A stretch of DNA of 26,444 nt from a virus, in the IMG/VR virus record IMGVR_UViG_3300025132_000244, positions 1-26,444 of that record; one strand, written 5' to 3'. Made by a program: the position numbers and the translations under genes. Position 1 is the stretch's first letter, and the number at the start of each line of letters is the position of its first letter. A model generated the notes under the pieces. The model was not told where the DNA came from and searched no databases. It saw only the letters and a program-made list of their open reading frames with translations. This document shows, one piece after another, positions 1 through 25,282 of this stretch.

Positions 1-1635
1 ACGATAGAGCAACAACTCAGGGCCACGAGAAGCATCTGCATCTGTGGACACAAGCGTGAGTTGTGGGTCATTGTCGGCAGTGGTAATTGTGCAGCCGTCT
101 GTTGCGGTGAAGCCGCCTGCAATCGCAGTTACGCCAGTACCGTTAGGGTCGATGTTCACGTTGCCGTTCGTATCGATGCTGCTGATGGTGTTGCCGTCGA
201 TGCGTATGTTGTCGGCATTGAGTTGCGGCACAGTCACTGCACCAGCAAACGTGCCGCCGTTGGTCTTGCTCACCATGTCAGCAGTCGTGAATGACTTAAA
301 TGCATAGATGTTCACAAGATCATTGGTAGCAGCGCCAGAAGCCAGCACAACCGATGTGCCGTTGCTGGCTGTGAAGTCAGACGGGTCAAGGATGACGCCG
401 TTCATCACGACTTGCAGATTGTCTGCCGTATAGGACAGAGTTGCGCTGTTGTCGTCTGAACCGCTGAATGTCGTTTGACCTGATGTGGCTGTGTACTCGT
501 ACAGGATCAAACTGACATTGCCAGCAGATGTGGCGGCAATCCAGTTGGCTCCGTCGTAAACACGCATCTCGTTTGCGGTGCTGTTGAAGTACAGCGCACC
601 GGCTACCAGGGCATCACCGTCATTATCGACTGTCGGATTGCTCGTCTTGCTGCCGAGATAGGTGTCATCAAAGTTATCGAAAGCAGATGCCGCAGATGCA
701 GCACTAGCTGCCGCCGCAGTCTGTGATGCAGCCGCAGCCGTGGCTGATGACGCCGCCGCTGTCGCAGAAGCCGCACTATTTGTCTCAGAAGTCGAGGCAT
801 TGCTGGCAGAAGTCGCCGCTTCGGCAGCTTTTGTGGTCGATGTCGCAGCAGATGTCGAGGCAGAAGATGCACTTGATGCCGCCGCCGTCTGGCTGGCCGC
901 ACTAGCCGCCTGACTGGCGGCACTAGCAGTCTCGCTGGCCGCACTAGCCGTCTGAGATGCAGCGGCAGCGGCGGCACTGGTCGATGCTTCTGCGGCTTTT
1001 GTCGTCGCCGTGGTGGCGCTACCAGACGCAGATGTGGCACTGGAAGCGGCAGCGGTGGCGCTTGCAGCCGCTTCATTAGCCTTGGTCTGCGCGTTTGCAA
1101 CCGCATCAATGGCAGGGCCGGCCTCTGGGTTGCCGGTGGTTGCGTTGAATTGCAGGGTCTTGCCCTTGCGGGTGTCCTTGGCCGGCAGCGTCATGTCCAG
1201 GCTGCCGCCATCATCCACATGCGCTGGGTCATAGACCGGCGCTTGCATGCTGCGCTTCTGTTCTTCTGCCACCTGCTGGTCAAAGATGGTCAGGCTGTCG
1301 AGCTGCTGATTCAAGCTGGACGCCAGCAAGTCGCCGGCTGTCACAAAGTCAGTGACCCGTTCAATGTCACGCGCACCCAGGATGATGATGGTGTCGTTGG
1401 CATCAGGCGTTGCTGGTATGTTGCCGCCCACGTTGACAACGACGGTAACAGAGCCGGTGCCGTTGGCGTTGATGGTGACAGAGTAGTCTGTGGTCTTGGT
1501 CAGCTTGGTGGTGTTGAAGTAGATTGCCAGATCGTCATCGTCTAGCACCTCAAAGGTGAAAGCATACGGCCCCAAGCCGGCAGAGCCGGTGAAGACGACG
1601 CGGCGCGTCACTGCGTTGATATTGTAGTCAGCCAT
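1..1635 (-). CDS. Tail fiber protein with T7-type N-terminal domain (partial, C-terminus beyond window)
   Basis: Open from ATG at 1635 to the window edge (545 codons, no stop), so the receptor-binding C-terminus is missing. Residues about 1-120 (start MADYNINAVTRRVVF, then GPYAFTFEVLDDDDL) match the pattern of the T7 tail-fiber N-terminal domain that anchors fibers to the tail. Residues about 180-317 are almost only Ala, Ser and Thr with Lys/Glu spaced between, including a repeated TTKAAEA(S/A)TSA unit; this looks like the trimeric coiled-coil shaft of many fibers. The rest is Asp/Asn/Gly/Thr-rich, typical of beta-structured fiber segments. The start is supported by AAGGA 9 nt upstream. It is the last gene seen in the leftward structural operon, 30 bp after the 1028-aa virion protein. 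N-terminal assignment is confident; receptor and exact fold cannot be judged. Confidence 0.88.
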   Translation of the reverse strand, partial: MADYNINAVTRRVVFTGSAGLGPYAFTFEVLDDDDLAIYFNTTKLTKTTDYSVTINANGTGSVTVVVNVGGNIPATPDANDTIIILGARDIERVTDFVTAGDLLASSLNQQLDSLTIFDQQVAEEQKRSMQAPVYDPAHVDDGGSLDMTLPAKDTRKGKTLQFNATTGNPEAGPAIDAVANAQTKANEAAASATAAASSATSASGSATTATTKAAEASTSAAAAAASQTASAASETASAASQAASAASQTAAASSASSASTSAATSTTKAAEAATSASNASTSETNSAASATAAASSATAAAASQTAAAASAASAASAFDNFDDTYLGSKTSNPTVDNDGDALVAGALYFNSTANEMRVYDGANWIAATSAGNVSLILYEYTATSGQTTFSGSDDNSATLSYTADNLQVVMNGVILDPSDFTASNGTSVVLASGAATNDLVNIYAFKSFTTADMVSKTNGGTFAGAVTVPQLNADNIRIDGNTISSIDTNGNVNIDPNGTGVTAIAGGFTATDGCTITTADNDPQLTLVSTDADASRGPELLLYR

Positions 1636-1665: not shown

Positions 1666-4600
1666 TTATTTCACCAAATTTTGTAAGCTGGGTTCTGGTG
1701 CTGACAGGCGCGGGTACTTCTTCTTGTTCTTAGCTGCTGCCAACTTTTCAGCGAACTCTGGGAACTCAATGACATCATCATCCAGCCCATAATTAGACAT
1801 ATCTTCCGGCACAAGCGAATACTCATACATTCCAGGATTCATCATGTCTTCATCAATGGCACCAAACATACGAACCTTTGCCAGCTTGCGGTACTGCGCC
1901 ACGATGTTGTTGACAAGGTTGCGCGCTTGACCAATAGGGAACTCTTCGCCAGTCATCTCATAGTCTTCCATCATCTCTGACATAGACATCTTGATGTTTT
2001 CTTTGAGGGTCAAGCCGTCAATCGTAATGACCTGGCCGTATAGCTCCTTGAACCTGTTTTCAATTTTAGGCGGGATCTTGATGCCATCAAATGCGCGAGG
2101 CGCTTGCGGCATATTGTGCTGGATTGCATCCAAGAACTCCAGCACATCGTCCTTTTCGCCAAAGGTCATGGCCAGCGGTTGCCAGGCTGTGGCCTGGTTT
2201 GTGCCTATCTCTTCGCCCCAGTCATTTAGCTTGGGCAGAACGTCGCGTGAATAGATGGGGATGCGAGAGCGCCATCTATTCATGGCCTCGCCAAAACCTA
2301 CCATTGAATCAGGGTAGTCCTCACCGACGCCGACATTGCTAATCGTCGGGTCAATGGCTCTCTCAATGCGCGCCACCAGTGTGCTGTTGCTCATGCCTAC
2401 AACTGGTGTGCCAGAAATGTAGAAGCTGGTGTAACGCTTCTGGATGGCATTGAAGATAGACACGAGCCTGTCACCGCCATCAGTTTGTTTATGGCCGGCA
2501 ATCGACATCAACTCAGAGAAGGTCTGCATAGTCGGGATTGATGTGGCGAACTCAGATGTGCCTGCCATGCCTGCGCTGAACGCAATATCAAACATGGTGT
2601 TGTCAGGGTCGTATTCTTTGTACTTGGCAGCATCAGCAATAGCAGAACCAATCAAAAGAGGCATGTTGGCTGGCTCCAACCTGTTCAGCGGAATGAACCA
2701 GCTATCGTCAAAATCTTTGCCCGTGCCTTCCACAATGCCTTCGGGGCCGAGAAGGTCCATCAGCCTTTTGACATTCTCAGAGCTGATTTCATCCTTGCCA
2801 ATACGCAGCGAAAACTCTTGCCAGCCTCTGGCCTTCAGGTCATTGCGCTGACCAGTGTCTGTCGGCCCAGCGCCAGTGACACGGCCACGCCCTGCAAGAT
2901 CATAGCCGACATACAACATGGCACCACCTAAAGCCATCTTGCTCAAAGCCAGGTCACGATGCCGGCCACCCTTCTGCCAGTCACTCCAGAAGCGCGGCGA
3001 CAGGACTGCCGCCGGCCCCATCCTAGACATGCCCTCATTGGCAATGTTGGTCAGCGTCTTTGAGAATGGCGCAAGTGGCTTTACATACCACTGGTTCATC
3101 AACTTGTTTGCGCCGCCGTAAATGCCTGCCAGCGGCAGCTCTTTGTCCAGGTCATCTTGCAATGTAGATTGCCTGCGCCAAGCCAGCATGGACGCCTCAA
3201 CATCGTCTGGTCTTTCAGTCAGCAGCTTTTGTACAGCGCGCTGTCCGGCTTCTACAGCCTGCATGTGCGCTGTCTTTTCTTCTGCGCCTCTGGCCATAAG
3301 ATCTGCAAAGGTGCTGTCATACACCCTGCCGCCAAGCCTGGCGGCTTCCTCATGCAACTGCACACGCTGCGAGATGCCGGCAAAGAACTCATCAGCAGCA
3401 CCAAGCGCCCTAAACGGCACAGAGTAGACCAAGCCCATCATGTTAAAGGCTTTGCCCAGGGGCGAAGCTGTCAAATCTGGCAGCTCGCGGATCTTCTTGG
3501 TAAACGGTATTTTATACGGTGCGCCTGCCCAGTACGCTGCGCGCAGCGGGTCACGCGGCGCGTCCTTGGCTGCGCCACCTTCCATAAACTTGCGGCCCAT
3601 CATAGTGAAGCCATCAACCAGGCCATTGCGCAAACCAGACAGCCGAGCATAGATATCAGTGGCGTAATACTGATCAGGGTTTGGCTTGCCCACCAACGCC
3701 TCTAAACGCTGACGCAGCGGCGTCATAGCCACAGCAAACATGCGTTCTGGCACATCCAAGAACTGCATCAAGGCGTTGCCGGCAGCATTGTAGAAGTGTG
3801 TCACAGGGTCATTCAGCATGACCGACTGCGCCATATAGACCATAGATTCATATGACTTGCGCTTGACGCCGTTACGCAGCAGAGCATTGCGCGCCGCAGG
3901 GCTGTTGGTGTTGTTATATGCCTCTGCCATAATACGCAACTGATCATCGCCACCCAGTGCATCCAGAGCCGCGCGCACCTCGTTGATGCTCAGATTGCTG
4001 CCACGGTCTTTGGTGTTCTTGAAGACATTCATTGACCTGGCCACATCTGTCTTTGCGCCTGACAACTCAGCAAGAATCACATCGTGCTGCGCGATTGCCT
4101 CTCGCAGCTCTAGCTTGCCAGCATCGTCTAGCTCACCACGGCCAGCCAGACGCATCAGCTCATCGACCTTGCTGGCGCTGACATCGTGCAACACCATGAG
4201 GCCAGCCATGTACTCAGCTAGCTGACTGCCGCCCACAGCGGTGGTCTTTTCTACGCCAGAAAAAATGCCGTTCAGGTTTTCTTCTGGAATGCCGGCTTCC
4301 ATAGCGCGGTCATAGATCTGCGCCACAGTCATAGGTTTGTTGGCAGCAACACCCTCTTGGTCAGCGACCTTGGCAGCAGCCTGCACTGTGGCGGCTAGCG
4401 TGTCGCTGTCATAGAAGGTGGTGTTGACCGGCCCTTCAGCAATGCCGGCTTCCTTCTGTGTGCGTGACGGCGATGGCGCTTCACGCGCTGTGCCTATCTC
4501 TGCCTCAGTAGCTATGATGCGCGCGTCTACTTCTGCTTCAGTCACAGGCTCTGGTGCCACAGGCTGTGGCGGCACTTCCACCTCTGGCTCTGGCGCTAGT

Positions 4601-4896: not shown

Positions 4897-7363
4897 GGTT
4901 TACTCCTTCAAAATCGTACCACGGTATGCTGCCACCCTCGAAAGGCTCTACAGATCCTTTGCCGGCCTTTGTCCTTGGGAAGTCAGGCGGGATGACCTCA
5001 GAGTTTTTGGCAAGTGCTTTGTCCAAAGTATCATCCAGTTGTTGTTTTGTGAATGAATAAGGGGTGCCATCGCTAGCTTCATAAATGTAACGATTAGACC
5101 CATCTGGCAGTTTTTCGTACTTGGCCCCAGAATACTTTGATTTGAATCTACCTTCCATCACAGGAACATTGGCCACTGGTGTGGCATCACCCGCTGATGT
5201 CCGCACAACGGTCTCCAGCGTTGGGTGCGACACAATCTGACCAGAAGACCTAACCCAGCTTTCCCAGTGATACCGGCCTACGGTGCCAGCCTCTGTGCGT
5301 CCTGCCATCTTGTACAGCTCTGGCACTCTGGTCATCAGTGACCGCTCCAGCGCCTCATACTGAGCCAGACCCTGTGATGTGTCAAACTGCTGCATGATGT
5401 CGTCATAGATCTTCTCACCGCCGCCCCACATCTGGTTGATCTGGATTCGGTCAAGAACCACAACATCGTTGCGGCCCGACACTAGCAATGCGAATGACAG
5501 GATCTTGTTCTTGATGCCGGTGTCTTGTGCGATGCCATAGTATTCACGCCTGATCTCTCTACTGGCCATATCCTGATTTGCAATCATCTCATGCAACCTA
5601 GCCAGGCCAGACTTACCTGACGCATCCGGCACTGCCATCTTCTTCAAGAACACCTTGCCAAAGTCATTTGCATTGGATGTTGCAGACTTGCCTGGGCTAC
5701 CGGCAGGGATCGTGGTTTTGACCATGTTTAGCCAGCCAGCAGTGTCTGCATCAGACCACTCGCCACGCGCAGCCTTCTGAATAAAAGGCATAGCCTTCTC
5801 GGCCAGGTCTTTGTATCCGCTTTCATGCGGGAATGCAGACAGACGCCTGGACAAGATAGACCACAGCATGAGCTGACCCGTCAGCTCTGGGCCAGCACCG
5901 GCAGCATACGCGCCCTTGAATCTGTTCTGAACAGCCAACCCATCGTTGGCTGCTTTGATCTGGGCCGGCGTCAACTGCTTAAACCAATCCGACCATTTGT
6001 TCATGTCATTAGCATGCTCAATCATCCAGACTGGCGGCGCAGGCACATCCTGCCGGTTTAATGCCCTAGACATCATGTCCACATATCCCTGCGTCGATGC
6101 CAGTGGATCGGGAAACTCTAAGTCAATTTCATCAAGCCTTGCCGTCTGCGCCGTAAAATTGTTTGGCGTCATAGCCGCAGCAATAAAAGATTCATTCTTG
6201 CGCTGCAACTGCACCGGCTCAAATGATGGGTTGTTGACTGTATACTGGCCAGGCACACCAATGACTGGGGCGTCAGTCTCTACCCTTGATGTAAAGACAG
6301 GCTCTGCTGAAACCATCTTGCCGGCAGCAGCCAGTGCTGGGTCAATCACTTCCATAGGATCTACGCCAGACATCAAGCGGTCTTGCATTGGCCCACGTTC
6401 TGCTATACGCGCCTCTGCTGATTCACCCAGAGATGAAATTGCGGAACGAACAGCAGGGCCACCAACTTCAACAGTTTTCTGCACACCTTTTGTAATTCCT
6501 GCACCAGCCGCAGCGCCTATGCCTGTGGACGCAAGGGTTCGCATGACAGCCTCACCCAAAGATGGTGGCGCGCCAGCAGCAGTCTCTAATATCATGTTGC
6601 CGGCTTCATAGATGTTTGCATATGCAGCACCAGCACCAGCCCCAGATACAACTGGCGCGCGCTTGGCAAGCTCAGTCGTATAGCCAGCAGTCTTTGCTGC
6701 CAGCATCAGCATTTGCCTGGCCGTCATGCTGCTTGTCTTTAATGCTGCTGCTTTGATGACCGGAGCAGCAAAGCCACCTACCACAGTGGCATACGTTTCT
6801 GGCGCACCAAACAATGCGCGGAACGACCTTTTGATGGTTGCGCCTTCTGTCTTGGTGTCAGCATATGTGTTCAACATAAACAGAAAATCATTGGCATTGT
6901 TTTCTTTGGTGACTAGGTTGCCATCCAAATCTGTATAGCCGCCACTGTTCACGATGTTGTACACCTGACCAACCATACCAGGCGAACTAATGCCTGATTC
7001 ACCAGGGAAGCCAGCAACGCCTGTCACGTTCCAATTAAACTCGCCCATTAGATCCATGCCATAAGCAGCCGCCTGCTTATCAGAGCCAATGAACTCATAG
7101 CCCTCCATGACACGGTGCATGCGCTTTGATACCTCAATCCAATCAGGCATCATGGTAAGCTGCTCTTCACTAAACTTGGGCTTTTTTGGCGCGTCGCGTC
7201 GAGCCTTTCTAGCGCCGCGAAGTGAATCGTCAATTTCATCTTCATCCGCTACCGCATCAGAAGACGCAGGTATGCCGAGCTTCATAAAAGTGTTTTGGTC
7301 TGCTTGCTGATTGTACATCTCAGCAAGCTCATCCATCACTCTGTCTTCAAGAAAGCCGCTCAC
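4847..7363 (-). CDS. Internal virion protein, 838 aa
   Basis: Second of three consecutive large genes after the gp14-like protein. The N-terminal 70 residues are charged, with a basic stretch (GARKARRDAPKKPKF). Residues about 183-300 contain several Gly/Ala-rich hydrophobic segments (VVGGFAAPVIKAAAL; STGIGAAAGAGITKG) that could cross or enter a membrane, as expected for an ejected core protein. A compact, more conserved-looking block around residues 610-660 includes ALLVSGRNDVVVLDRIQ followed by NQMWGGG, which suggests an enzymatic or folded domain that I cannot name with confidence. The start ATG overlaps the previous stop by 4 nt (ATGA), with GGGA upstream. The 3' end overlaps the 46-aa gene. 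Role in DNA ejection is inferred from order and size, not from a catalytic motif. Confidence 0.72.
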   Translation of the reverse strand: MSGFLEDRVMDELAEMYNQQADQNTFMKLGIPASSDAVADEDEIDDSLRGARKARRDAPKKPKFSEEQLTMMPDWIEVSKRMHRVMEGYEFIGSDKQAAAYGMDLMGEFNWNVTGVAGFPGESGISSPGMVGQVYNIVNSGGYTDLDGNLVTKENNANDFLFMLNTYADTKTEGATIKRSFRALFGAPETYATVVGGFAAPVIKAAALKTSSMTARQMLMLAAKTAGYTTELAKRAPVVSGAGAGAAYANIYEAGNMILETAAGAPPSLGEAVMRTLASTGIGAAAGAGITKGVQKTVEVGGPAVRSAISSLGESAEARIAERGPMQDRLMSGVDPMEVIDPALAAAGKMVSAEPVFTSRVETDAPVIGVPGQYTVNNPSFEPVQLQRKNESFIAAAMTPNNFTAQTARLDEIDLEFPDPLASTQGYVDMMSRALNRQDVPAPPVWMIEHANDMNKWSDWFKQLTPAQIKAANDGLAVQNRFKGAYAAGAGPELTGQLMLWSILSRRLSAFPHESGYKDLAEKAMPFIQKAARGEWSDADTAGWLNMVKTTIPAGSPGKSATSNANDFGKVFLKKMAVPDASGKSGLARLHEMIANQDMASREIRREYYGIAQDTGIKNKILSFALLVSGRNDVVVLDRIQINQMWGGGEKIYDDIMQQFDTSQGLAQYEALERSLMTRVPELYKMAGRTEAGTVGRYHWESWVRSSGQIVSHPTLETVVRTSAGDATPVANVPVMEGRFKSKYSGAKYEKLPDGSNRYIYEASDGTPYSFTKQQLDDTLDKALAKNSEVIPPDFPRTKAGKGSVEPFEGGSIPWYDFEGVNRGKLDELIRAAGTEIK

Positions 7364-9117
7364 ATCAATTCATCCCGCAGTGTTTGGTTTCGCTCAATAC
7401 TCAACAGCTTTGCCTTGATGAACTCAATGTCAGGATCTGACAAGTTAAGCGCGGCCTGGTTGTCGATGATCTCTTCAATGGTCGTGTACTCGCCAATATC
7501 AATATAGGGATAATTCTCTGCCAAAGCACTCAAGAGGCGGTCAATGTTTTCCTGGTACTCGCTGCCAGCCAGCTCCAGTCTGTAATCCCGCGCAATGACA
7601 GACCTGACCGGACGATCACCAGTCATGCCGCCATCTTCCCAGTCTTCCATTGCGGCGCTAAATCTTCTATCGACATTCGCGATAAAGCTATTTACGGCTT
7701 TGGCTTGTTTTACCTCAACATTGATCATGCCGGTGACAAGACCAGTGTGGCGACGCGCCTCTGCCTCAACCTTGGAAAACTCTTCTTTGTTTGCAGCCTC
7801 AAGCCTTGGTGCCAAGGACAAGATCTGCTTTGGCCCAACATCAAGTTTCTGGCCTTCAGCAAAAAGAGTAAGGTGGTCTGTGATCTGGCCTTGAGCAATC
7901 ATTGTGCGTAGAGCAAAAACACCAGTTGGATTGTCAGGCTCATAGTATGCAGGCTGATTAACTTGTTCCTTTGTCTTGAACAGCGCAATGATGCCCTGAC
8001 CATCAATCACTTCTGGATACATCGTAGCGGTTTCTGTAAGAGCTGCGACTGCCTCTTTTTCATCATCGCTGCCACCAGGCGCGTTGACAAAGTCAATCAC
8101 ATTGCTGACGGTATCTTGTTTAGCCACCAACACATTTTCTTTGCGCGTCTGGTCATCTGCGCCTTGCCTAAAGGAAATCTCATCACGAATCTGTTTGCGC
8201 AAAACAATCTTCTGCGCATCGTCTAGCGTGTTGTAGAGCGCAGTCTTGTCGCCAAAGTCGCCACGCCGCAACGCGGATAACCTTTGCTCTGCCGGCAGCT
8301 CAATAGCATAGTTTGCAAGCACATTGACCTTGGCTGTGGCAATCATGGCAGGGAACTTGCCTGATTGCTCTGTGAAAAAAGCGGCATCATTTGTGGACAA
8401 TAATTGATCAGCAACAGAGTTGACTGCTATGACCGCCTCGCTTTCACTAGCCAGCAGATCGCTGCCAATAGTGACAGCACCTTTATCCTGGGTGAAGATG
8501 TCTTCCAAGGCATCTGGCAGCGCCGACATGGTTGCTTCGGCGTTTGCCATTTTGATTGCTTGGTTGAGCTTGATCTGCCGCTCTAGCCCCTTCTGGTACA
8601 CTGGAGCCGACAGCGTCGCTATCGTTGCATTAAATGAACTTGCCACCTTTGGGTCAAGCGCAGCAATCAAATCTGTGTAGCCGGCAGACATGCCAGTGAT
8701 CTCGCGCATCTCAGCGTTGATGTCGAGATCTTCACCACCTTCAATCCTTGCGCTAAGATTAGCCAGGCTGGACCTAGTCGTGGCAGTCAATTCTGTGCTG
8801 AGTTTTTGCGCAGTAGTAGCCACCGACACAGACCCAAAGACTGTTGTCGGGTCGCCAAGTATTTGATCAACAGACTGGCCACCGGCAAGCGCCGCCTCTA
8901 GCTGCTCTGCCGTGATGTCTTGGTCATATGCAAACTGTGCCGCCTCTACTTTGGTGCGCGCCTCTTCTCGACCAGCAACATACCGCGACATCACATCCAA
9001 GCCGCGCGACATACTTTCAAAAACGCCAGCCTGCGCCCTGCCAGTAGCCGTGAAGTCAACACTAGGTATCGACGGTATCGAAGCACCTAGTGGACGGTAT
9101 CTTGGTCGTTCTGCCAT
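7360..9117 (-). CDS. Internal virion protein, 585 aa, helical (T7 gp15-like position)
   Basis: Starts MAERPRYRPLGASIPS and is then almost entirely helical, rich in Ala, Glu, Gln and Leu, with many coiled-coil-like stretches (for example ARTKVEAAQFAYDQDITAEQ near residue 55). No membrane segment or catalytic motif was recognised. Its place, directly after the gp14-like gene and before two larger proteins, is that of T7 gp15 (internal virion protein C), a helical scaffold of the ejection core; sequence alone does not prove homology. The stop overlaps the next ATG by 4 nt, and the start overlaps the preceding stop by 1 nt (TAATG), so the three genes are translationally coupled. Confidence 0.7.
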   Translation of the reverse strand: MAERPRYRPLGASIPSIPSVDFTATGRAQAGVFESMSRGLDVMSRYVAGREEARTKVEAAQFAYDQDITAEQLEAALAGGQSVDQILGDPTTVFGSVSVATTAQKLSTELTATTRSSLANLSARIEGGEDLDINAEMREITGMSAGYTDLIAALDPKVASSFNATIATLSAPVYQKGLERQIKLNQAIKMANAEATMSALPDALEDIFTQDKGAVTIGSDLLASESEAVIAVNSVADQLLSTNDAAFFTEQSGKFPAMIATAKVNVLANYAIELPAEQRLSALRRGDFGDKTALYNTLDDAQKIVLRKQIRDEISFRQGADDQTRKENVLVAKQDTVSNVIDFVNAPGGSDDEKEAVAALTETATMYPEVIDGQGIIALFKTKEQVNQPAYYEPDNPTGVFALRTMIAQGQITDHLTLFAEGQKLDVGPKQILSLAPRLEAANKEEFSKVEAEARRHTGLVTGMINVEVKQAKAVNSFIANVDRRFSAAMEDWEDGGMTGDRPVRSVIARDYRLELAGSEYQENIDRLLSALAENYPYIDIGEYTTIEEIIDNQAALNLSDPDIEFIKAKLLSIERNQTLRDELM

Positions 9118-9599
9118 TAGCCTGTTACCGTTGTTTGCAAGCTAGGCTCCAGCGGTGCCTTTGGAGCCGCGCCTAGTGATTTGTTGAACGCATACGCCTG
9201 GCCGAATGCAGCGGCAGCATTGAACACACCTGACATCATTGTGGCGCTAGCCTGCGCCTCATACTGATCTGCCTGCAACACACCAGAACGCAGCGCAATT
9301 ATAGCGCCTTCATCAGACAAAAACTTTTCTTCGGCCCCTTTGGCCTCGGCAAATATAGACAAGGTTCTGGCACTGCCACTGAAGGGGTCAATGCCACCTG
9401 CGCCAGCCCTGGCAATGATTGCCGCATCTGTGGCCAAGATGTTGTCCAGCACCTTGACGCCCTGCGCCTTGTACTTGAGGGCGTCAGTGCGCGCTTGGGT
9501 GCGCACCTGGGTTGCTTGCGCAGCAAGCCCACGCGCCGTCGCCTGCGCTGCTTTCAGCGCCGCAAAGGCTTGCAGTCCAGCTATTGCATACATGCTCAT
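9117..9599 (-). CDS. Internal virion protein, T7 gp14-like, 160 aa
   Basis: Small Ala-rich helical protein beginning MSMYAIAGLQAFAALKAAQA, then a long helix, a Gly-rich turn (ARAGAGGIDPFSGSARTL near residue 67) and a further helix with QADQYEAQA. This pattern (Ala-rich N-terminus, a GVDPFSGS-like turn, helical C-terminal half) is common in gp14-type internal virion proteins of T7-like and marine podoviruses, which form the pore in the outer membrane at infection. Position immediately after tail tubular protein B and before two to three larger internal proteins supports this. The ATG lies 1 nt after the stop of the tube gene, with GGGGC about 7 nt upstream. Confidence 0.78.
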   Translation of the reverse strand: MSMYAIAGLQAFAALKAAQATARGLAAQATQVRTQARTDALKYKAQGVKVLDNILATDAAIIARAGAGGIDPFSGSARTLSIFAEAKGAEEKFLSDEGAIIALRSGVLQADQYEAQASATMMSGVFNAAAAFGQAYAFNKSLGAAPKAPLEPSLQTTVTG

Positions 9600-9600
9600 G

Positions 9601-11808
9601 TCATTGCCCCGCGCTCACTTTGTAATCAATACCCAGCAGCGTCATCTTCAATGGCACTGTCTGGCCAATGGTGATCTGCCCGTCATAAGTATAACCTAAA
9701 ATGCCGTGCTGCGTCTTGATGCCTGTAAACTCTTCCACAGAGCTGTCCAGGACGCTTGCGCCAAAGTTTCTAAACGGCACCAGCTTGCCATTGATCGTCA
9801 GCGCCTGTGTCTCAAACAGCTCGGCGTTGACCTCAAAGATACGCTTCTTGAAGCCTTTCAGAGACCCGCTGGCGAGGTTTGGCTCCACCGGCAGGGTCTT
9901 GATCTCTGGCGTAAAGTTAAGGCCCACCTGGTGGCTGCTAGTGGCCGCTGTGGCAAACGTGACAGTGTGCGGCGATGCCGGCACAGTCTGGTCAGGCTCA
10001 ATGACGCCGTCGCGTATGATCTTGACGCTCTCGCCATTGAGGTGCGCCATCGTCACAGAGCTGGCAGCGCCGCCAGTCTTGGCGCTGTCTAGCAGCACAT
10101 TAGCGTCGAACAGCTCCACATAGTACGCCGCCGCGCTGTTGATGGTGCGCTTGACTACTACATAGATGTCATCGACATCGACGCCAATGTTCAGGAACTC
10201 ACCGTCCGTAGTCCACTCAGACGGCGCAATCACGTTCTGGCTTCGTAACAAAGTGTAACAAGCAATGCTGCCGTCTGTGCCGTTGACGATCATCAGACGG
10301 TCACCCTCATCTGTTGATGTGGCAACACGCACCGCCATTTCTTCTGGAGACTTCAACAGATGTGATGACAGCAACGATATCTTGGCCGAGGTGTAAGCCT
10401 GCACACTGTCACTAAAGACGAACTCTTGCAGCGCCTTACCCTGGCGCTGGATGAACAGCGTTGACCCGTCCACGTTCTGCAACCGAATGCCAGGCTTCAT
10501 GCCAAAGGCAGTCTGCTGCTTCACAATCAGATTGCTTGGCGTGATCGGCTCATCCAAAGTCTGCGGCACAAAGAACTCAGCGCCACTGGTAAAGACCTGC
10601 AAGTTGCGGCCTGAGAAGATATCGACAATGGCATTGAAGGTGCCGGTGTCCAGCGTCGCCTCAACGCCATCATCAGCCAAAGCCTCGCCTGGGTTGAAGT
10701 TGAAGAAGTCAGAAACCCGCGAACCAAACAGTGTCGATGGCCGGCTCTTAGTGCCGCCAAAGAACAGACGCCCCTCATGGAATGTCACGCTGCGCGGATA
10801 GCCGCGCGTGGCAGACCACACATCCTCATAGCCATGCTCACTGTTCCAGTCGCCGGCAACAATCGCGTCGGTGTCGAAGAAAGGCACATCAACAAATGCC
10901 TTCATCACAGTATCACTGACGAACTCCACATAACGCGCACGACCAAACCCAGTGGCAACTGATGCGTAATCTCCAACCGCCGCAGAGTTAAATGCCTTGA
11001 TGGCATAGTGTGTCGTGGCATCAGGTTGTGTTGTCCAGGCTGTGTTGACAGTCGCAACCTTAGTTGACCCCACATAGTCCTCAATGTGGCGCTTCTGGCC
11101 AGAGCCTGTGCCGCTGGTCAATTCAATGTACATGCCGTTGGGCTGATCATCGACAGTGAAGCTGGACGACGATTTAAGCGTGATGGTGTCTGTGCCGCCG
11201 GCTTGCGCCGTACCCGTGTCAGTCGTTACTGAAGACGCGGTGATAGTAATGTTGCCGCTGACAGCAGACGGCGTGATCGTAAACTGTGGGCTGTGGACAT
11301 CCACAACAAAAGTAAACTGAGGAATGTGGTCAAAGGCAATCGCGCTTGCAGTCCATGAGCTGTCAGTAGCGCCTCGCACAATCTTGGTTGGCGGCAGATC
11401 CTCATGCACGACAATGACAGTGTCAGCAGATTGCACCCAGTTCATCTCAGGCAGGATGGAAGCAGTCAAGCTGGCAACAGTCAGAAAGTCACTGCCGCTG
11501 CCATTGATGTTGGTGACTTGCGCGCCGTTCTTGAAGACGTACATTTTGCCAGGTGTGAAGACCAGCATGTAGCTGTCATTGATGCTGAACTCAAAGCTGA
11601 CCATGCGCACAGCATTAGCTGCACCGCTGTCTAGCGTGGCAACATACTTGGTGCCGTCACGGCGCTTGGCACCGCCCTGGGGCTGAATGCTGACATTCTT
11701 GGCTGTGGTCAAGCCAGACTTATACTGCGCAATGTCAGTGCGCGCTCTCAGCTTCGGATCTAGCTCACCGCTGGTGAAGTCATTCTGGATCTGAATGATG
11801 CGGCTCAT
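9601..11808 (-). CDS. Tail tubular protein B (T7 gp12-like nozzle protein)
   Basis: 735 aa, close to the size of T7 gp12 (794 aa). The N-terminus, IQNDFTSGELDPKLRARTDI followed by LTTAKNVSIQPQGGAKRRDG, is the characteristic opening of podovirus tail nozzle proteins. The body is beta-rich with many Gly/Thr/Ser/Asp turns, as expected for a beta-propeller nozzle, and no transmembrane segment is evident. It follows tail tubular protein A by 1 nt, the conserved order in this tail type. The start is supported by AAGG 7 nt upstream of ATG. Confidence 0.9.
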   Translation of the reverse strand: MSRIIQIQNDFTSGELDPKLRARTDIAQYKSGLTTAKNVSIQPQGGAKRRDGTKYVATLDSGAANAVRMVSFEFSINDSYMLVFTPGKMYVFKNGAQVTNINGSGSDFLTVASLTASILPEMNWVQSADTVIVVHEDLPPTKIVRGATDSSWTASAIAFDHIPQFTFVVDVHSPQFTITPSAVSGNITITASSVTTDTGTAQAGGTDTITLKSSSSFTVDDQPNGMYIELTSGTGSGQKRHIEDYVGSTKVATVNTAWTTQPDATTHYAIKAFNSAAVGDYASVATGFGRARYVEFVSDTVMKAFVDVPFFDTDAIVAGDWNSEHGYEDVWSATRGYPRSVTFHEGRLFFGGTKSRPSTLFGSRVSDFFNFNPGEALADDGVEATLDTGTFNAIVDIFSGRNLQVFTSGAEFFVPQTLDEPITPSNLIVKQQTAFGMKPGIRLQNVDGSTLFIQRQGKALQEFVFSDSVQAYTSAKISLLSSHLLKSPEEMAVRVATSTDEGDRLMIVNGTDGSIACYTLLRSQNVIAPSEWTTDGEFLNIGVDVDDIYVVVKRTINSAAAYYVELFDANVLLDSAKTGGAASSVTMAHLNGESVKIIRDGVIEPDQTVPASPHTVTFATAATSSHQVGLNFTPEIKTLPVEPNLASGSLKGFKKRIFEVNAELFETQALTINGKLVPFRNFGASVLDSSVEEFTGIKTQHGILGYTYDGQITIGQTVPLKMTLLGIDYKVSAGQ

Positions 11809-16905: not shown

Positions 16906-17083
16906 GGCTGCGCTCCTCGCTGATCTTGTCCATCATTGCCGGCGTCAACAGACCGCGCTTATACAAGCGCCTGGTGCGCTTAATCTCAGCGCGGCGCTTG
17001 TCTGGATCTTTAGCGCCGGCAACGTACTTCTTCGGAATGCCAGACTTCTTGTCCTTCGGCACCTCGGCAAACTTACGCGCCAT
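16898..17083 (-). CDS. Small very basic protein, 61 aa, unknown
   Basis: MARKFAEVPKDKKSGIPKKY then VAGAKDPDKRRAEIKRTRRL and YKRGLLTPAMMDKISEERSRG. More than a quarter of the residues are Lys or Arg. The PKDKKSGIPKKYVxGA opening is a pattern I associate with other aquatic phage and giant-virus short proteins, but I cannot assign a family. It overlaps the upstream gene by 11 nt and the DUF5824-like gene by 8 nt. Upstream GAAGAAG is a weak ribosome-binding site, so coupling to the previous gene is likely. A nucleic-acid-binding or virion DNA-condensing role is possible but only inferred from charge. Confidence 0.66.
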   Translation of the reverse strand: MARKFAEVPKDKKSGIPKKYVAGAKDPDKRRAEIKRTRRLYKRGLLTPAMMDKISEERSRG

Positions 17084-17231
17084 ACGTTTTCTTCTTCGCC
17101 ATCTTGGTCTTCATGCTGGCACCAGTCATGCGGCCACCAGTCTGGCGCGCATACTCTTTTGCCGCCTTCATGCCAGCCTTGCTATATGCGAAGTGGCGGC
17201 TCTTGCCGTCCTTAGATACTACCTTTGGCAT
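17073..17231 (-). CDS. Small basic protein, 52 aa, unknown
   Basis: I place the start at ATG 17231 (MPKVVSKDGKSRHFAYSKAG) because GGGAG lies 6 nt upstream; a longer reading to 17270 would run through the end of the previous gene. After a KDGKxRHFAYSKAGMKAAKE segment come ARQTGGRMTG and a Lys-rich end MAKKKTYGA. This short pattern with a Lys/Arg-rich tail recurs in aquatic phage genomes next to portal genes, but no function is known to me. It is one of four consecutive small basic proteins that precede portal. Confidence 0.66.
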   Translation of the reverse strand: MPKVVSKDGKSRHFAYSKAGMKAAKEYARQTGGRMTGASMKTKMAKKKTYGA

Positions 17232-17232
17232 G

Positions 17233-17820
17233 CTATGCTCCCAATGTGTCAGACGTAAACCTGTCGCCACTCAGCAGGGTGCGAGACCCCAGCCTACGCA
17301 TACCGGCGAGGCGACGCCGCCGGTTCTCGGCTTCAATCTGTTGCGCCAGTGCAGAGCGGCGCACAACAGGTGGACCTGCCGGCGCTTCTGCTTCTGACTG
17401 TGATGCAGCCTGCTGCGCACCAGTGCCACCACCATCATCGTCACTTTGATCACCCTGACGCGGCCTGCCAGTGTAGCGGCCATCACGCATGACGCCGATC
17501 ACCACGCCGTTTTCGCGAACAGGTGTGCCGCCAGCCTCAAGACCCTCGATAATCTTTTTACGGGTGAACGACCCAAGGCCAGTCATCAAGCCTGCTATCA
17601 GGCTTGGCACCTTGGGCATGCTTGCCTGCGACTGCTCCTCACGCTGTTGCACTTGTTTGACAGCAGCGCGCCTGGAGATGGCACTGTTGAATGACGGCTC
17701 AATGCCGGCGGCCCTAGCCATCCCGCTGTATCTTGCTGCCGCAGCAGATTGTCCGCGAGACAACCCCCTAGACGCCGCCTGTTGCCGCGTTGATGGCTGT
17801 GGCTTAGAAAAATCAACCAT
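17233..17820 (-). CDS. Unknown 195-aa protein with Arg-rich C-terminal LLS...DTLG motif
   Basis: N-terminal 80 residues are Ala/Arg/Gln/Ser-rich and helical (SRGQSAAAARYSGMARAAG), then a Gly/Val segment with ENGVVIGVMRDGRYTGRPRQ, an acidic linker (DQSDDDGGGTG), and a C-terminus RRRRLAGMRRLGSRTLLSG that closes with RFTSDTLGA. The end resembles that of the next upstream 71-aa protein, suggesting a shared C-terminal signal. No enzymatic motif. The stop TAG lies 1 nt before the next ATG, and the start is 3 nt after the previous stop, so it is co-translated with the small-gene cluster. A virion or connector-associated role is likely from position. Confidence 0.66.
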   Translation of the reverse strand: MVDFSKPQPSTRQQAASRGLSRGQSAAAARYSGMARAAGIEPSFNSAISRRAAVKQVQQREEQSQASMPKVPSLIAGLMTGLGSFTRKKIIEGLEAGGTPVRENGVVIGVMRDGRYTGRPRQGDQSDDDGGGTGAQQAASQSEAEAPAGPPVVRRSALAQQIEAENRRRRLAGMRRLGSRTLLSGDRFTSDTLGA

Positions 17821-21395: not shown

Positions 21396-22106
21396 CTACG
21401 CATCTGCCAGGCTCCGCGCTACGTCAGCAAGGGCCGGCACCCCTGCCCTCTTGGCAAGAGCTGCGCTGCACACAGCCAGCGTCTGCGCATGCACAGCCTC
21501 TGCGGTGTAGCCCTCAACAGCCAGGCGGTGTGCCTGCGTGATCTCGTTGTCGAACAGGCGCACCTGGCCTGTCGCCTGCTGCACTGCGCGGATGTAATGG
21601 TGACAGATCTCTGCCGCTGTTAACTGGATTTCGGTTAACTTTGCCTCGCCCTGGCCGCCCAAGCCTTGCGTGTAAGAGAGCGATTGTCTATCCCCCAGAC
21701 CCCCTGTTCCTTCCGGCATATCGTCATCTTGATCACGCACGAGCTGTAGTGGCTTGGCAATGTGTACATCCTCAAACGTGGGCAGTGGCTCGTCACCGTC
21801 CCACAGCACTTGGTATCTGTTGCTCTTCCAGCCTGTCACGGTCTCTTGGTAATCCTTTGGCTGTAGCTGTCTGACGTACTTGTAACGCTTCAGCCGCTTC
21901 ATGGCATCGTGTACGCTCTTTCGCTCTGCGTAGCCGCTGACCTCACACAGTGTGACCATTGACGGCCAGCACACTCCGGCTCTGTTGGTGAACGCACACA
22001 GCGCACCCAGGACACGCAGCTCACGTTCTTTGAGCTGGCGGTCAGCAAACGCTCTCATTGGCATGACTGACCAGGGTCGTTTGTTTTCAGAAAGGGATAG
22101 TGTCAT
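21396..22106 (-). CDS. Winged-helix replication-initiator-like protein
   Basis: About 236 aa. Residues about 10-81 contain a helix-turn-helix of the HTH_36/replication-protein type: PMRAFADRQLKERELRVLGA, LCAFTNRAGVCWPSMVTLCE and VSGYAERKSVHDAMKRLKRY. Such domains occur in plasmid and phage initiators (lambda O and RepA-like). A polar linker follows and a helical Ala-rich C-terminal part (HAQTLAVCSAALAKRAGVPA). It lies downstream of the repeat-rich region near 22657-22783, which could be its binding site. The start is uncertain: ATG 22106 has GAG 7 nt upstream, ATG 22118 has none, and both overlap the end of the previous gene. Transcription regulator is the alternative. Confidence 0.72.
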   Translation of the reverse strand: MTLSLSENKRPWSVMPMRAFADRQLKERELRVLGALCAFTNRAGVCWPSMVTLCEVSGYAERKSVHDAMKRLKRYKYVRQLQPKDYQETVTGWKSNRYQVLWDGDEPLPTFEDVHIAKPLQLVRDQDDDMPEGTGGLGDRQSLSYTQGLGGQGEAKLTEIQLTAAEICHHYIRAVQQATGQVRLFDNEITQAHRLAVEGYTAEAVHAQTLAVCSAALAKRAGVPALADVARSLADA

Positions 22107-22656
22107 TGAGGATCTCATCCATGTCTGTCTTTGGTTTGATGTCTTCGATCACGGCACCTGGGAATGTATCTTTGACGATCTCAAGCAGTGGTGCTTTGTC
22201 TGCTGCCATCTTGGCAATCATCATTGCCAGCTCTTCTGCTGAGTACACGACCAGATCACGGTTCTCTCTTTTGACCTTTGCCACATCGTAGCTTGTCCTG
22301 ACGACGGCCAGCACTTTGCCATCAGGCATGACGGCTTCGATGTAGTCACCTGACAGTGGCTCGTGTCCATTGTTGATTGCAGCTTGCTCCAGTGCAGCCA
22401 GCCCTCTCTTTGTGACATCGACCTGGTGTTCCACATCGACGCGGTCATCGATAGCTTTGTTGAGCTTATCCATCTGCGCCTCGAACCTTTCACGCAGATT
22501 CTGACCTGCAAGCCAGGGCAATCTATCCACGCCCCACTTCATCTCCATCTTGGTCACTGCTTCATCGTAATCATGTAACGCCTGTTGCATTCGACGCTCG
22601 GCAGCTTCACTTGGCGCAAGATACGCCTTGCTAGGTTTCTTTGGTCTCTTCGCCAT
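22087..22656 (-). CDS. Unknown 189-aa protein ending in an SSB-like tip (NDTIPF)
   Basis: Start ATG 22656 (MAKRPKKPSKAYLAPSEAAE) has a perfect GGAGG 5 nt upstream, so the longer frame to 22725 through the repeats is rejected. Residues about 17-100 are helical and charged, probably a coiled coil (RFEAQMDKLNKAIDDRVDVE); then a small beta segment (EAVMPDGKVLAVVRTSYDVA) and a helical part. The very end, MDEILNDTIPF, resembles the acidic Ile-Pro-Phe tip with which bacterial SSB recruits DNA repair and replication proteins. Position between origin-like repeats and the winged-helix gene suggests a replication accessory role. No known family was recognised. Confidence 0.68.
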   Translation of the reverse strand: MAKRPKKPSKAYLAPSEAAERRMQQALHDYDEAVTKMEMKWGVDRLPWLAGQNLRERFEAQMDKLNKAIDDRVDVEHQVDVTKRGLAALEQAAINNGHEPLSGDYIEAVMPDGKVLAVVRTSYDVAKVKRENRDLVVYSAEELAMMIAKMAADKAPLLEIVKDTFPGAVIEDIKPKTDMDEILNDTIPF

Positions 22657-22783
22657 TCTATCCTCCAGGTGTGATGTGATCACTATGTGATGAGGTGATC
22701 CCTTATAGGGGATCACATCACACACATATGTGATGGTCGCATGTGATCACTATGTGATAGGTATGTGATGACACTATATCTCA
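22657..22783. repeat. Dense GTGAT/ATCAC repeat array (candidate origin or operator)
   Basis: Thirteen half-sites fall in 127 bp: GTGAT at 22671, 22676, 22687, 22695, 22730, 22743, 22754 and 22765, and ATCAC at 22679, 22712, 22717, 22746 and 22783. Three copies at 22743, 22754 and 22765 repeat every 11 bp. The 18-mer ATGTGATCACTATGTGAT occurs twice exactly (22674-22691 and 22741-22758). There are palindromes GTGATCAC (twice), GTGATCCC-TTATAG-GGGATCAC (22695-22716) and ATCACA-CACATA-TGTGAT (22717-22734). The array fills the whole gap between the primase-helicase stop and the next ribosome-binding site. Iterons of a replication origin or binding sites of a repressor are the two readings. Confidence 0.9.
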
Positions 22784-24601
22784 TCACACATTTCCCGCTA
22801 TCTCTTTGTTATTCCATACTTTGCCACCATCAATGACGATCACACCCTTATCTTGCAGGCCAGCTCTGGCATCTCTGCGCTGTGCGGCGGTCAGATCTGG
22901 CGCTTTTTGCTTGTGCAGATCGTGCCATCTATCGACTGACATCTGCGTCGCCTGCATGTCCACCAGGCCGTTCCTGAGCGCCTGTAGGGCGATCAACTGC
23001 CGCTCTGACAGTTTGGCCCCTCTCTTCTTCTCAGCGGCCTCTGTGGGCAGCAGGATGGCGCTGCTGTCATCGATGAGCTGTATGGGTGTCAGCTCGTAGG
23101 TTGTGTCTGGTGCCGGCTCTGCATCCTTTTGCTTGGTCACCTTCAGGGTGACTGTCGCCTCTGATGCTGTCATCTCCAGGACTGAATCCGCTAATCCCGC
23201 AAGGGAACTACTGCCGCGCATTCCTCTGGCTGCGTCCTTGCCGCTGTGGTGGACAGCCAGGACGGCGCACTTTGCGTGTCGTTGTATGACGCCGCACATC
23301 TCACCGAACTGGCCCATCGCTGTTGCGTCGTTCTCATCAGATCCTGTGCTGGCGAGTGTCCTGGCGACTGTGTCGATGACGATCATGCTGAACTGCACCT
23401 TGAACGCATCGATGGTACGCAGCAGCTTCTCCAGGTCTGGCTCTTCAAGTAACTTCACAGCCATTGGCAGCACATGAAAATCTGTGACGCCGTGCGTGTC
23501 GTAGTGTGCTTGCCACGCCCTGACCCTTTTGCCCAAGCCGCCCACGCCCTCTGCGGCCAGGTAAAGTACAGCGTTTTGTTTTGTGACCTTGTCGTGCCAC
23601 GGCTTGCCGTAGGCCACTGACAGGGCAATGTCGATCGACATGAAGCTCTTGCCTATGCCTGGTGCGCCGTACAGCACAGCAAAGCCGTGCGCTGTCAGCA
23701 GGCCGTCCACCAGCCACTCGACTGGCGGCATGTTTCTGAGGTAGTCGATGCTGTATGTCTCGAACACATCTGGCTTGTCTTCAGGCTCTGCTGGCTCTGG
23801 CTCCACCGCTATGGGCGTTGCAGCCTTCACCAGCTCCATGAGCTGCTGTGTGTTGCCGCCCTTGAACAGCCAGTCCACCACATCGTCCTTGTCATCGCCT
23901 GGCAGGTCCACGCGCTTGATGGCCTTGGCTGTGCCGTATAGCTGGCTGATGACCACATCTGCATGCGCCCTGCCGGCATCGTCATTGTCGGGCAGCACGA
24001 TCACGTTGCGGCCTTTGAAATATTGGTTCAGCTCCGGCTTCCAGTTTTTTGAACCGCCGTGGTTGGTACTGGCCACCAGGCCCAACAGGTTGAGCCGCTC
24101 GGCTGCCTTCTCGCCTTCCACAATGAAGATAGGCGCGTCTGGGTTCTGGATTATGCCGACCAGGTTGTATGGCAGAGCCTCGACGCCTTGCAGGTTGTAG
24201 AGCCACCCGCCCTTATCATCTGGCCGGCGCTGCCTGAAGGTCTTTGGCTCGAACCGTTGCACCTGGTAGCGCAGGACGCCGTCGCTGTCATAGTAGTCGT
24301 ATTGCTTTGCCAGGTACTTGGCCGGCGTCAGTGCCTTCTCTTGCTGCGGTGCAATGCCGAACTTTTCCTGCAACACCTGGCTGATGCTGCCATTGAGGCT
24401 TGCCGGCTCGTTGAGGCGCACCAAATCTATCACGCCCCCGCCTGTGTTGGATTCATGGCAATACCAGGTGCCGGTTTTTAAACTGACGCTGAAACTGCCG
24501 TGTGTGCCGAAGCGCAGCTCTGTTCCCCTTGAGAGCTGCTTGTTGGGTTCGCCCTTGTAGTGTCGGGCCACCTCTTCAATGTAACTTGCAATGTTGTTCA
24601 T
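22784..24601 (-). CDS. TOPRIM primase fused to RecA-like helicase (RepA/AAA_25 type)
   Basis: 605 aa from ATG 24601 (MNNIASYIEEVARHYKG), with GGGGA 5 nt before it; ATG 24613 is the alternative. Residues about 26-59 look like a CHC2 primase zinc region (RFGTHGSFSVSLKTGTWYCH, then GGGVIDLV) but only one Cys remains, so metal binding is probably lost. The TOPRIM domain follows, with VEGEKAAE (Glu about 162) and LPDNDDAG (205-210). The RecA-like NTPase has Walker A GAPGIGKS (312-319), Walker B MIVIDT (Asp about 410) and HHSGKD (451-456). It should make primers and/or unwind DNA at the phage fork. No DNA polymerase is in the window. It follows an 11-bp hairpin. Confidence 0.92.
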   Translation of the reverse strand: MNNIASYIEEVARHYKGEPNKQLSRGTELRFGTHGSFSVSLKTGTWYCHESNTGGGVIDLVRLNEPASLNGSISQVLQEKFGIAPQQEKALTPAKYLAKQYDYYDSDGVLRYQVQRFEPKTFRQRRPDDKGGWLYNLQGVEALPYNLVGIIQNPDAPIFIVEGEKAAERLNLLGLVASTNHGGSKNWKPELNQYFKGRNVIVLPDNDDAGRAHADVVISQLYGTAKAIKRVDLPGDDKDDVVDWLFKGGNTQQLMELVKAATPIAVEPEPAEPEDKPDVFETYSIDYLRNMPPVEWLVDGLLTAHGFAVLYGAPGIGKSFMSIDIALSVAYGKPWHDKVTKQNAVLYLAAEGVGGLGKRVRAWQAHYDTHGVTDFHVLPMAVKLLEEPDLEKLLRTIDAFKVQFSMIVIDTVARTLASTGSDENDATAMGQFGEMCGVIQRHAKCAVLAVHHSGKDAARGMRGSSSLAGLADSVLEMTASEATVTLKVTKQKDAEPAPDTTYELTPIQLIDDSSAILLPTEAAEKKRGAKLSERQLIALQALRNGLVDMQATQMSVDRWHDLHKQKAPDLTAAQRRDARAGLQDKGVIVIDGGKVWNNKEIAGNV

Positions 24602-24667: not shown

Positions 24668-25282
24668 CTAGAACAGATCGCTGCCAGCCGCAGGAGGTTG
24701 TTGCGGTGCAGGCTCTGCCTGTGCGGTCTCAGCCGCTGGGGATGCGGCATTGAAAGCCTCGCGGTCAATCCACTGAGTGATCGGCGCGAACTTGGGTGCC
24801 TTGAAAACCAGCTCACCCTTCGGCGTATTGATTGTGACGCGCTGTGCGCCTTCGATGGTGACGACTGGCACCTTGCCCTGGTTGGCATCCTTGCCGCGCA
24901 GATAGTCGTCGTGCAGCTCGTTCATGGCCTTCTTGACCACCTTGGAGCTGCTGCTCCACTCTCTCACGCCCAGCTCTTTGTTATAGACGCGGATGCGGAA
25001 GCCCTCCTGGTGTTCTACGCTTGGCCGTGCCGGCTTTGCCTCACCCAGGCCCACCATCTGAAAGTCTACGCCGTTGGCGAATGAAACCCACCCGACCTGG
25101 ACGCCCTCCATGTCCATAGCCACGCTGATCGGGAACGGCATCTCGGCATCCCGCTTTGACCAGGTGCCGTCTGACTGCTGTTCACGCTCTTGCCTGATGA
25201 AGTCACCAGACTGCGCGCTGTACTTGATGATGGGAAGAAAGTCGCCCCCACTTGTGGAAGCCTCTGAAAAACCTAACGCCAT
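24668..25282 (-). CDS. Probable single-stranded DNA-binding protein
   Basis: 204 aa. Beta-rich body with GGDFLPIIKYSAQSGDFIRQ, MDMEGVQVGWVSFANGVDFQ and VTIEGAQRVTINTPKGELVF, then an Ala/Pro/Gln-rich linker (AQAEPAPQQPPAAG) and the terminal SDLF. An OB-like beta core, a disordered linker and a short acidic-hydrophobic tip is the general plan of SSB and gp2.5-like proteins, and the place between a recombination nuclease and the primase-helicase fits. I do not recognise a specific family signature, so it remains a probable call. Start is firm: AAGGAG 6 nt before ATG, partly overlapping the stop of the nuclease gene. The tail lacks the strict DDDIPF form. Confidence 0.6.
   Translation of the reverse strand: MALGFSEASTSGGDFLPIIKYSAQSGDFIRQEREQQSDGTWSKRDAEMPFPISVAMDMEGVQVGWVSFANGVDFQMVGLGEAKPARPSVEHQEGFRIRVYNKELGVREWSSSSKVVKKAMNELHDDYLRGKDANQGKVPVVTIEGAQRVTINTPKGELVFKAPKFAPITQWIDREAFNAASPAAETAQAEPAPQQPPAAGSDLF

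Follow-up and report, generated by a model that had tools for sequence, protein, structure and literature searches.

A probable iteron-type phage replication origin, apparently read by the winged helix of the phage's own RepA-like primase-helicase

The window, that is, the whole 26,444-bp stretch of DNA analyzed here, is a virus fragment from IMG/VR; the contigs with which it was compared may be incomplete. It carries a minus-strand replication operon interrupted by a 127-bp gap. Upstream of the gap, the operon encodes an RHH protein, a PDDEXK/RusA-like resolvase, an SSB-like protein and a primase-helicase. Downstream of it lie the genes of a 189-aa protein, an HTH_36/O-like protein, a methylase, a DUF6378 protein and terminase. 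An earlier note on this DNA had placed the gap beside a winged-helix gene, but its true downstream neighbor is the 189-aa gene, and the HTH_36 gene, which overlaps the latter, comes next. The features of the locus are as follows.

21396–22118, minus strand: HTH_36/O-like protein P0003 (HTH_36, 1.7e-7)
22087–22656, minus strand: 189-aa protein P0001, adjoining the array in all 92 extracted gaps
22657–22788, no strand: iteron array (putative origin), filling the stretch from the primase-helicase stop to the 189-aa start
22670–22680, plus strand: overlapping TGTGAT iterons at 22670 and 22675
22674–22691, plus strand: first copy of the 18-mer ATGTGATCACTATGTGAT, comprising two words 11 bp apart
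22695–22716, no strand: hairpin GTGATCCC-TTATAG-GGGATCAC, with the lineage word in its arms, a C/G stem and a TA-rich center
22712–22722, minus strand: ATCACA iterons at 22712 and 22717, in opposite orientation
22729–22734, plus strand: TGTGAT iteron
22741–22769, plus strand: three words exactly 11 bp apart (22742, 22753, 22764) and the second copy of the 18-mer
22783–22788, minus strand: ATCACA iteron overlapping the helicase stop region
22784–24601, minus strand: primase-helicase P0002 (605 aa), with a primase/Toprim half, a RepA-like helicase and a C-terminal winged helix (profile and model)
22787–23011, minus strand: C-terminal winged-helix domain, proposed reader of the array, residues about 531–605 (AlphaFold2 and word tracking)
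22847–22888, minus strand: recognition helix, third helix of the model, residues 572–585 (AAQRRDARAGLQDK)
23180–23743, minus strand: RepA-like helicase domain, residues about 287–474 (Pfam AAA_25, 5e-41; PDB 1g8y)
24668–25282, minus strand: SSB-like protein of the same operon (from its position and an annotated syntenic equivalent in phage CRP-406)

The N-terminal half of P0002 matches DnaG/primase families. The only clear PDB relative of its helicase middle is RepA of RSF1010 (1g8y; E-value 1.7e-21, residues 288–474), and the winged helix falls outside the region common with RepA. Profile searches gave no family match for the SSB-like protein. For P0001, family profile searches returned no family above the cut-off, and its structural model, of moderate quality, had no PDB fold match worth naming. 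The 189-aa gene is nonetheless the only one besides the helicase gene found at every extracted array, and its product is a possible co-initiator or loader. P0003, which also matches replication-initiation O-like families, is a candidate accessory replication protein.

The gap is filled with thirteen GTGAT/ATCAC half-sites, exactly as many as the earlier note had counted. GTGAT starts at 22671, 22676, 22687, 22695, 22730, 22743, 22754 and 22765, and ATCAC at 22679, 22712, 22717, 22746 and 22783; the half-site at 22783 begins in the gap and extends into the helicase stop region. The same note had reported 11-bp spacing (22743/22754/22765 and 22676/22687), an 18-mer repeated exactly 67 bp apart (22674 and 22741) and a mixture of direct, inverted and palindromic forms, and all these details held on re-examination. 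The repeated word is better written as the 6-mer ATCACA/TGTGAT, 10 copies of which, facing either way and in part spaced by 11 bp, surround a hairpin. Elsewhere in the window, the best 127-bp stretch has 4 half-sites compared to 13 in the gap. The maximum in 200 dinucleotide shuffles of the whole window was 2–5, and shuffles of the gap alone had on average 1.7 half-sites and at most 6. The array is the strongest repeat cluster in the window, and the same holds for nearly all of ten relatives of 31–37 kb. The next repeat-dense stretches of the window (603–1109 and 17000–17300) are low-complexity and codon-driven (alanine-rich and basic frames) and are unrelated to the array. GC skew, which had been suggested as a check, proved uninformative as an origin marker, as the skew keeps its sign across the array, both in the window and in 8 relatives.

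When viral contigs were scanned twice, the queries being the HTH_36 and primase-helicase proteins, 106 loci were recovered. The gap between the helicase and 189-aa genes could be extracted from 92 records including the window, representing 47 distinct sequences of 101–160 bp. Short repeats are clustered in every one of the 92 gaps, in most cases with an inverted repeat at the center, but the word itself depends on the lineage: ATCACA, ATCTCA, ATCGCA, GTCCGG, GTCGGGT or GGTCGCAC. The earlier note had listed absent or unconserved repeats in close relatives among the observations that would refute its proposal; the outcome was unexpected, as across these gaps the architecture is kept and the word is not. 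A constant position coupled with a changing word suggests a sequence-specific reader that changes along with its site. In several relatives, the array lies simply 3′ of the helicase gene, with the next gene 250–350 bp off. In one record (L109, MW202711.1), 1.5 kb separate it from the helicase gene, and it adjoins the gene of the 189-aa homolog. Small opposite-strand genes, including one for an MqsA-like antitoxin, lie between helicase and array there (5277–6790). The annotated start of the 189-aa homolog (6698) falls inside the array, and therefore is probably wrong.

An array of this kind might serve mainly as an operator, at which the primase-helicase or another phage protein represses or times transcription of the 189-aa, HTH_36, methylase and terminase genes, while replication starts elsewhere. 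Such a role would suit an element that separates two genes of the same operon and immediately precedes a ribosome site and a start codon, and autoregulation by iteron initiators is established for iteron plasmids. However, ten words and a hairpin exceed a simple operator, the next gene in several relatives is, as noted above, well beyond the array, and the putative binding domain belongs to a protein that also comprises a helicase and a primase. A search of 22500–23000, admittedly a weak test, found no promoter-like site. We consider the operator explanation unlikely, since in the window and in the ten 31–37 kb relatives the word clusters only at the gap.

An iteron-type origin is the preferred reading, and the question of its reader was addressed by comparing array similarity with protein similarity for pairs of loci, using an initial set of 49 loci and a wider set of 99 (4851 pairs). 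The loci are related, so that pair counts are inflated and do not represent independent events. Among the 49 loci, correlation with the array was 0.30 for the RHH protein, 0.42 for the resolvase, 0.40 for the SSB-like protein and 0.36 for the 189-aa protein. Along the primase-helicase, it rose from 0.2–0.4 in the primase half to 0.5–0.6 in the helicase half, peaking at 0.69 for residues 556–600. In the 4851 pairs, the corresponding values were 0.40 for the primase half, 0.58 for the helicase core and 0.67 for the winged helix. Once the winged helix was controlled for, the primase was left with 0.03 and the core with 0.24.

Natural recombinants point in the same direction. In 83 pairs, the primase halves are at least 95% identical while the winged helices are less than 70% identical, and the median array similarity is 0.10; the sole high value comes from a pair sharing a word (L079/L083). 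Conversely, in nine pairs with unlike primases and like winged helices, array similarity is 0.71–0.77. A natural domain swap is provided by L086 and L096, whose words differ: their helicases have 8 differences in residues 1–500 and 64 in residues 501–605, and their flanking proteins are 91–97% identical. In L008 and L009 (words ATCTCA and ATCGCA), the HTH_36 protein is 100%, the 189-aa protein 95% and the primase half 99% identical. Helicase residues about 245–285, the linker between primase and helicase, form a recombination boundary in the relatives; L008/L009 and L080/L088 are near-identical before this boundary and diverged beyond it. In these comparisons, the word follows the C-terminal 60–100 residues of the primase-helicase, corresponding to the predicted winged helix.

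Could this co-variation reflect linkage only, with recombination moving the array together with the 3′ end of the helicase gene, and some other phage protein or a host protein acting as the reader? The array and the winged-helix codons are contiguous, and the helicase core, which is also linked, does correlate with the array. On the other hand, partial correlation favors the winged helix over the core (0.47 vs 0.24), and specific residues of the recognition helix follow single-base changes of the word. Moreover, the start of the 189-aa gene is equally near the array yet does not track the word, so adjacency alone is an insufficient explanation. We regard mere linkage as distinctly unlikely.

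The earlier note had proposed the HTH_36, RHH and 189-aa proteins as binders of the array, but each can be 97–100% identical between phages with different words. Across word changes, identities reach 98–100% for the RHH protein, 99% for both the resolvase and the SSB-like protein, 97–98% for the 189-aa protein (at the largest word changes) and 100% for the primase half. The RHH protein, attractive in view of the resemblance of WATCACW to the heptad of the RHH repressor omega, was rejected as the reader; it has, in addition, the same β-strand in L104 and L106. Rejected likewise were the 189-aa protein and the HTH_36 protein, which in pairwise alignments is 100% identical in L008/L009 and 97% in L033/L036, pairs with differing words. 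A role of either in binding the iterons and loading the helicase, as lambda O does, could be argued from the O-like matches of HTH_36 and from the constant adjacency of the 189-aa gene to the array in close relatives. Yet both proteins can be near-identical across word changes, and no HTH_36 protein was found in the GTCCGG and CGACC lineages, which still carry arrays. This makes either of them very unlikely to be the initiator.

The favored candidate reader is the C-terminal domain of the primase-helicase. An AlphaFold2 model of its last 94 residues, generated with 35 natural sequences, is a winged helix of three helices and a two-stranded wing, with pLDDT of about 90. The nearest solved folds are the winged helices of ORC1 (5uj7_A; VIA-align Z-score 9.8, 3.0 Å over 86 residues), Cdc6/archaeal Orc and MCM. 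These matches are modest; they back the winged-helix fold of the model rather than its function or sequence-specific binding. Within the third helix, the predicted recognition helix, N-terminal residues follow the third base of TCxCA. With TCTCA, all four helix types read TSR-[KR]-R-[SA]-DDR; with TCACA, all twelve have G/A/S and R where the TCTCA types have R and S/A. This putative code is a correlation over related sequences.

The hairpin at 22695–22716 is a second element of the gap, absent from the earlier note. In single-stranded DNA folding, the gap exceeds its shuffles in stability (z −3.1). When a hairpin was defined by at least 6 perfect stem pairs around a TA-containing center with C on the left and G on the right, it was found in 72 of 132 distinct arrays and in 7 of 1256 control windows taken from these loci, with 1.6 expected from shuffles. 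Examples include CCCTATAGGG, CCCTAGGG, CCTTTAGG and CTCTAAAGAG. This hairpin is the one sequence feature common to lineages with entirely unlike words. Although its shape is conserved while its sequence changes and it is probably transcribed within the operon, we find it scarcely credible that the element acts in RNA, as a structured intercistronic leader whose repeated words bind a protein (with a role in attenuation, processing or autoregulation). Only a minority of the words lie within the hairpin, the words occur in either orientation, as sites in double-stranded DNA would, and they show 11-bp phasing. Their putative reader has the predicted fold of a winged helix, the sole Rfam match was a miRNA at chance level, and no terminator-like site was found on the coding strand.

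The arrangement extends well beyond close relatives. Bacterial genomes and viral contigs were scanned with profiles, and repeat density was scored in the 250 bp after the helicase stop. This stretch ranked within the top 5% of windows of its own locus in 49 of 66 viral and 38 of 80 genomic loci (5% expected). Distant homologs in cultured phages, prophages and circular phage-plasmids keep both array and hairpin 3′ of the helicase gene, with further words such as GGTACA, CGGGAC, GTGAAC, GTAGCA, GAAACA, GTTATA, GTTGCA and CTTACC. Directly 3′ of the annotated gene, arrays are present in Rhizobium phage RHph_Y3_1 (TTCCCA), Idiomarinaceae phage 1N2-2 (GGTACA), Roseobacter phage CRP-406 (CTGGAA), Alteromonas phage XX1924 (GGTTCA, 12 copies) and Escherichia phage sortsyn (GTTAAC). 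In CRP-406 (L286, 3439–3765), a probably spurious ORF, CRP406_2, spans the GGCTGGAAA array and hairpin. The classical temperate Rhizobium phage 16-3 (L290, DQ500118.1) has 15 copies of GTGACA and a CACTCCTTTAGGAGTG hairpin at 3545–3920, 3′ of gene p101; its record annotates no origin at the array.

Plasmids conform to the same pattern. Two circular ones carry phage genes: the word is TGCGGAAG in the 38-kb plasmid p1 of Caenibius sp. WL and GCGCAACA, with hairpin CCCTATAGGG, in a 35-kb plasmid of Methylobacterium currus (L294, NZ_CP089300.1). In the latter (7609–9870), the Toprim primase and the RepA-like helicase are adjacent genes, followed by array and hairpin, a split form of the fused protein. 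The stretches read of these two plasmids had no other replication initiator annotated. An array is also present at this position in a 17-kb Klebsiella plasmid. Finally, in a 9.7-kb Roseomonas plasmid (L296, NZ_CP024585.1), a GTGTCCAGGG array (6110–6420) lies directly 3′ of a VapE/DUF5906-type gene, whose product shares the primase half, suggesting the same origin layout with another helicase. No clear array was detected 3′ of the gene in mycobacteriophages Minerva and Thonko, Microcystis phage Mae-JY30, Vibrio phage 1271 and Caulobacter phage GB2A, or in about half of the homologs from bacterial genomes. Methylophilales phage MEP301, the closest by portal protein, has no such primase-helicase in its annotation and thus offered no comparison.

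On balance, we believe that the gap is very probably an iteron-type replication origin, to which the phage's own Toprim/RepA-like primase-helicase binds by its winged helix. The origin put forward in the earlier note stands as the best reading and the operator that it named as the alternative is disfavored, but the proposed binder shifts to the C-terminal domain of the primase-helicase. In the proposed mechanism, the primase-helicase would bind the array through this domain, one protomer per ATCACA word, and one or two rings would probably assemble around the central hairpin. The RepA-like helicase would then open and unwind the DNA, and the fused primase half would synthesize primers on the strands thus exposed; the C/G hairpin, which either of them could form, is a possible site of priming. 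It may be comparable to the stem-loop of pRN1 or to the ssi hairpins of RSF1010, which the primase of that plasmid recognizes. Primer extension would fall to the host polymerase, because the 26-kb fragment showed no polymerase gene. Being neighbors, the reader and the word could be exchanged or mutated as a matched pair, giving each lineage a private origin.

If this is true, phages, prophages and phage-plasmids of a widespread group gain an origin and a reader for it, whereas in the open literature we found no origin described for them; the paper on CRP-406 mentions neither iterons nor a replication origin (PMC12629253). It would also offer a reason for the private words, namely origin exclusivity between co-infecting or co-resident relatives. 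With belief and doubt about equally weighted, we propose that these loci form a large undescribed class of origins in phages and phage-plasmids, defined by self-read iterons, by reader–word pairs giving mutually exclusive specificities (compare plasmid incompatibility) and by the hairpin as a common priming site. With many natural matched pairs and clean domain swaps at hand, the recognition code of the winged helix should be readable and testable, and the pairs are a resource for studying how proteins read DNA. Direct tests of the proposal are possible with cultured examples in E. coli K-12 and Sinorhizobium.

How does this system relate to known ones? Replication of P4 requires a second, distant site, crr. 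Here, by contrast, there is a single array, and no second word cluster was found in the window or in the ten 31–37 kb relatives, records that may be incomplete. P4 alpha has an SF3 helicase, whereas that of P0002 is of the RecA-fold, RepA-like type (best matches AAA_25/RepA, not SF3), and the conserved C/G hairpin inside the array further sets the P0002 system apart. The likeness would lie in a Toprim-type primase, a helicase and an origin-binding domain combined in one chain, with iterons at ori1 and crr in P4 (PMC4234260 and general knowledge); P0002 has this order of primase, helicase and C-terminal domain, the last being the putative origin-binding part.

SaPI Rep and SCCmec Cch2 are initiator helicases that recognize, through a C-terminal domain, short iterons lying directly 3′ of the gene encoding them (PMC7581432), and other PICIs do the same (PMC6092414). 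The position of the iterons immediately 3′ of the initiator-helicase gene is shared with these rep-ori modules. However, SaPI/PICI helicases belong to another family and the primase is often separate, whereas here a RepA-like helicase is fused to a primase. In addition, the two iteron sets of PICI origins flank an AT-rich melting region, and here the iterons flank a C/G-stem hairpin with a TA center. ORF904 of the archaeal plasmid pRN1 combines primase, helicase and C-terminal winged helix in one chain, and an essential stem-loop just downstream of its gene has a conserved structure and a variable sequence among relatives (PMC4234260). Unlike the P0002 system, it has an archaeo-eukaryotic primase, an SF3 helicase and no iterons.

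The helicase domain itself is homologous to RepA of RSF1010, whose oriV combines iterons with small stem-loops (ssi) at which priming occurs (PMC4234260). In RSF1010 (IncQ), RepA, RepB′ and RepC are three proteins and RepC reads the iterons, whereas here primase and helicase are fused and the word follows the helicase's own C-terminal domain. Lambda-type origins are read by a separate O-like initiator, while the HTH_36 protein here is identical across word changes. A global regulator would have operator sites at several promoters, in contrast to the sparse half-sites outside the gap (at most 4 per 127 bp). We do not assign the system to P4, PICI or IncQ, because for each a defining feature was looked for and is lacking. 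With P4 alpha, SaPI Rep and ORF904 as precedents, the proposed mode of action is of a kind already known. Judged against the open literature, the apparent novelties are the RepA-like class of helicase, its employment in ordinary phages, a TA-centered C/G hairpin where an AT-rich region would otherwise lie, and strong evidence, provided by natural swaps, for the evolution of reader and word as one cassette.
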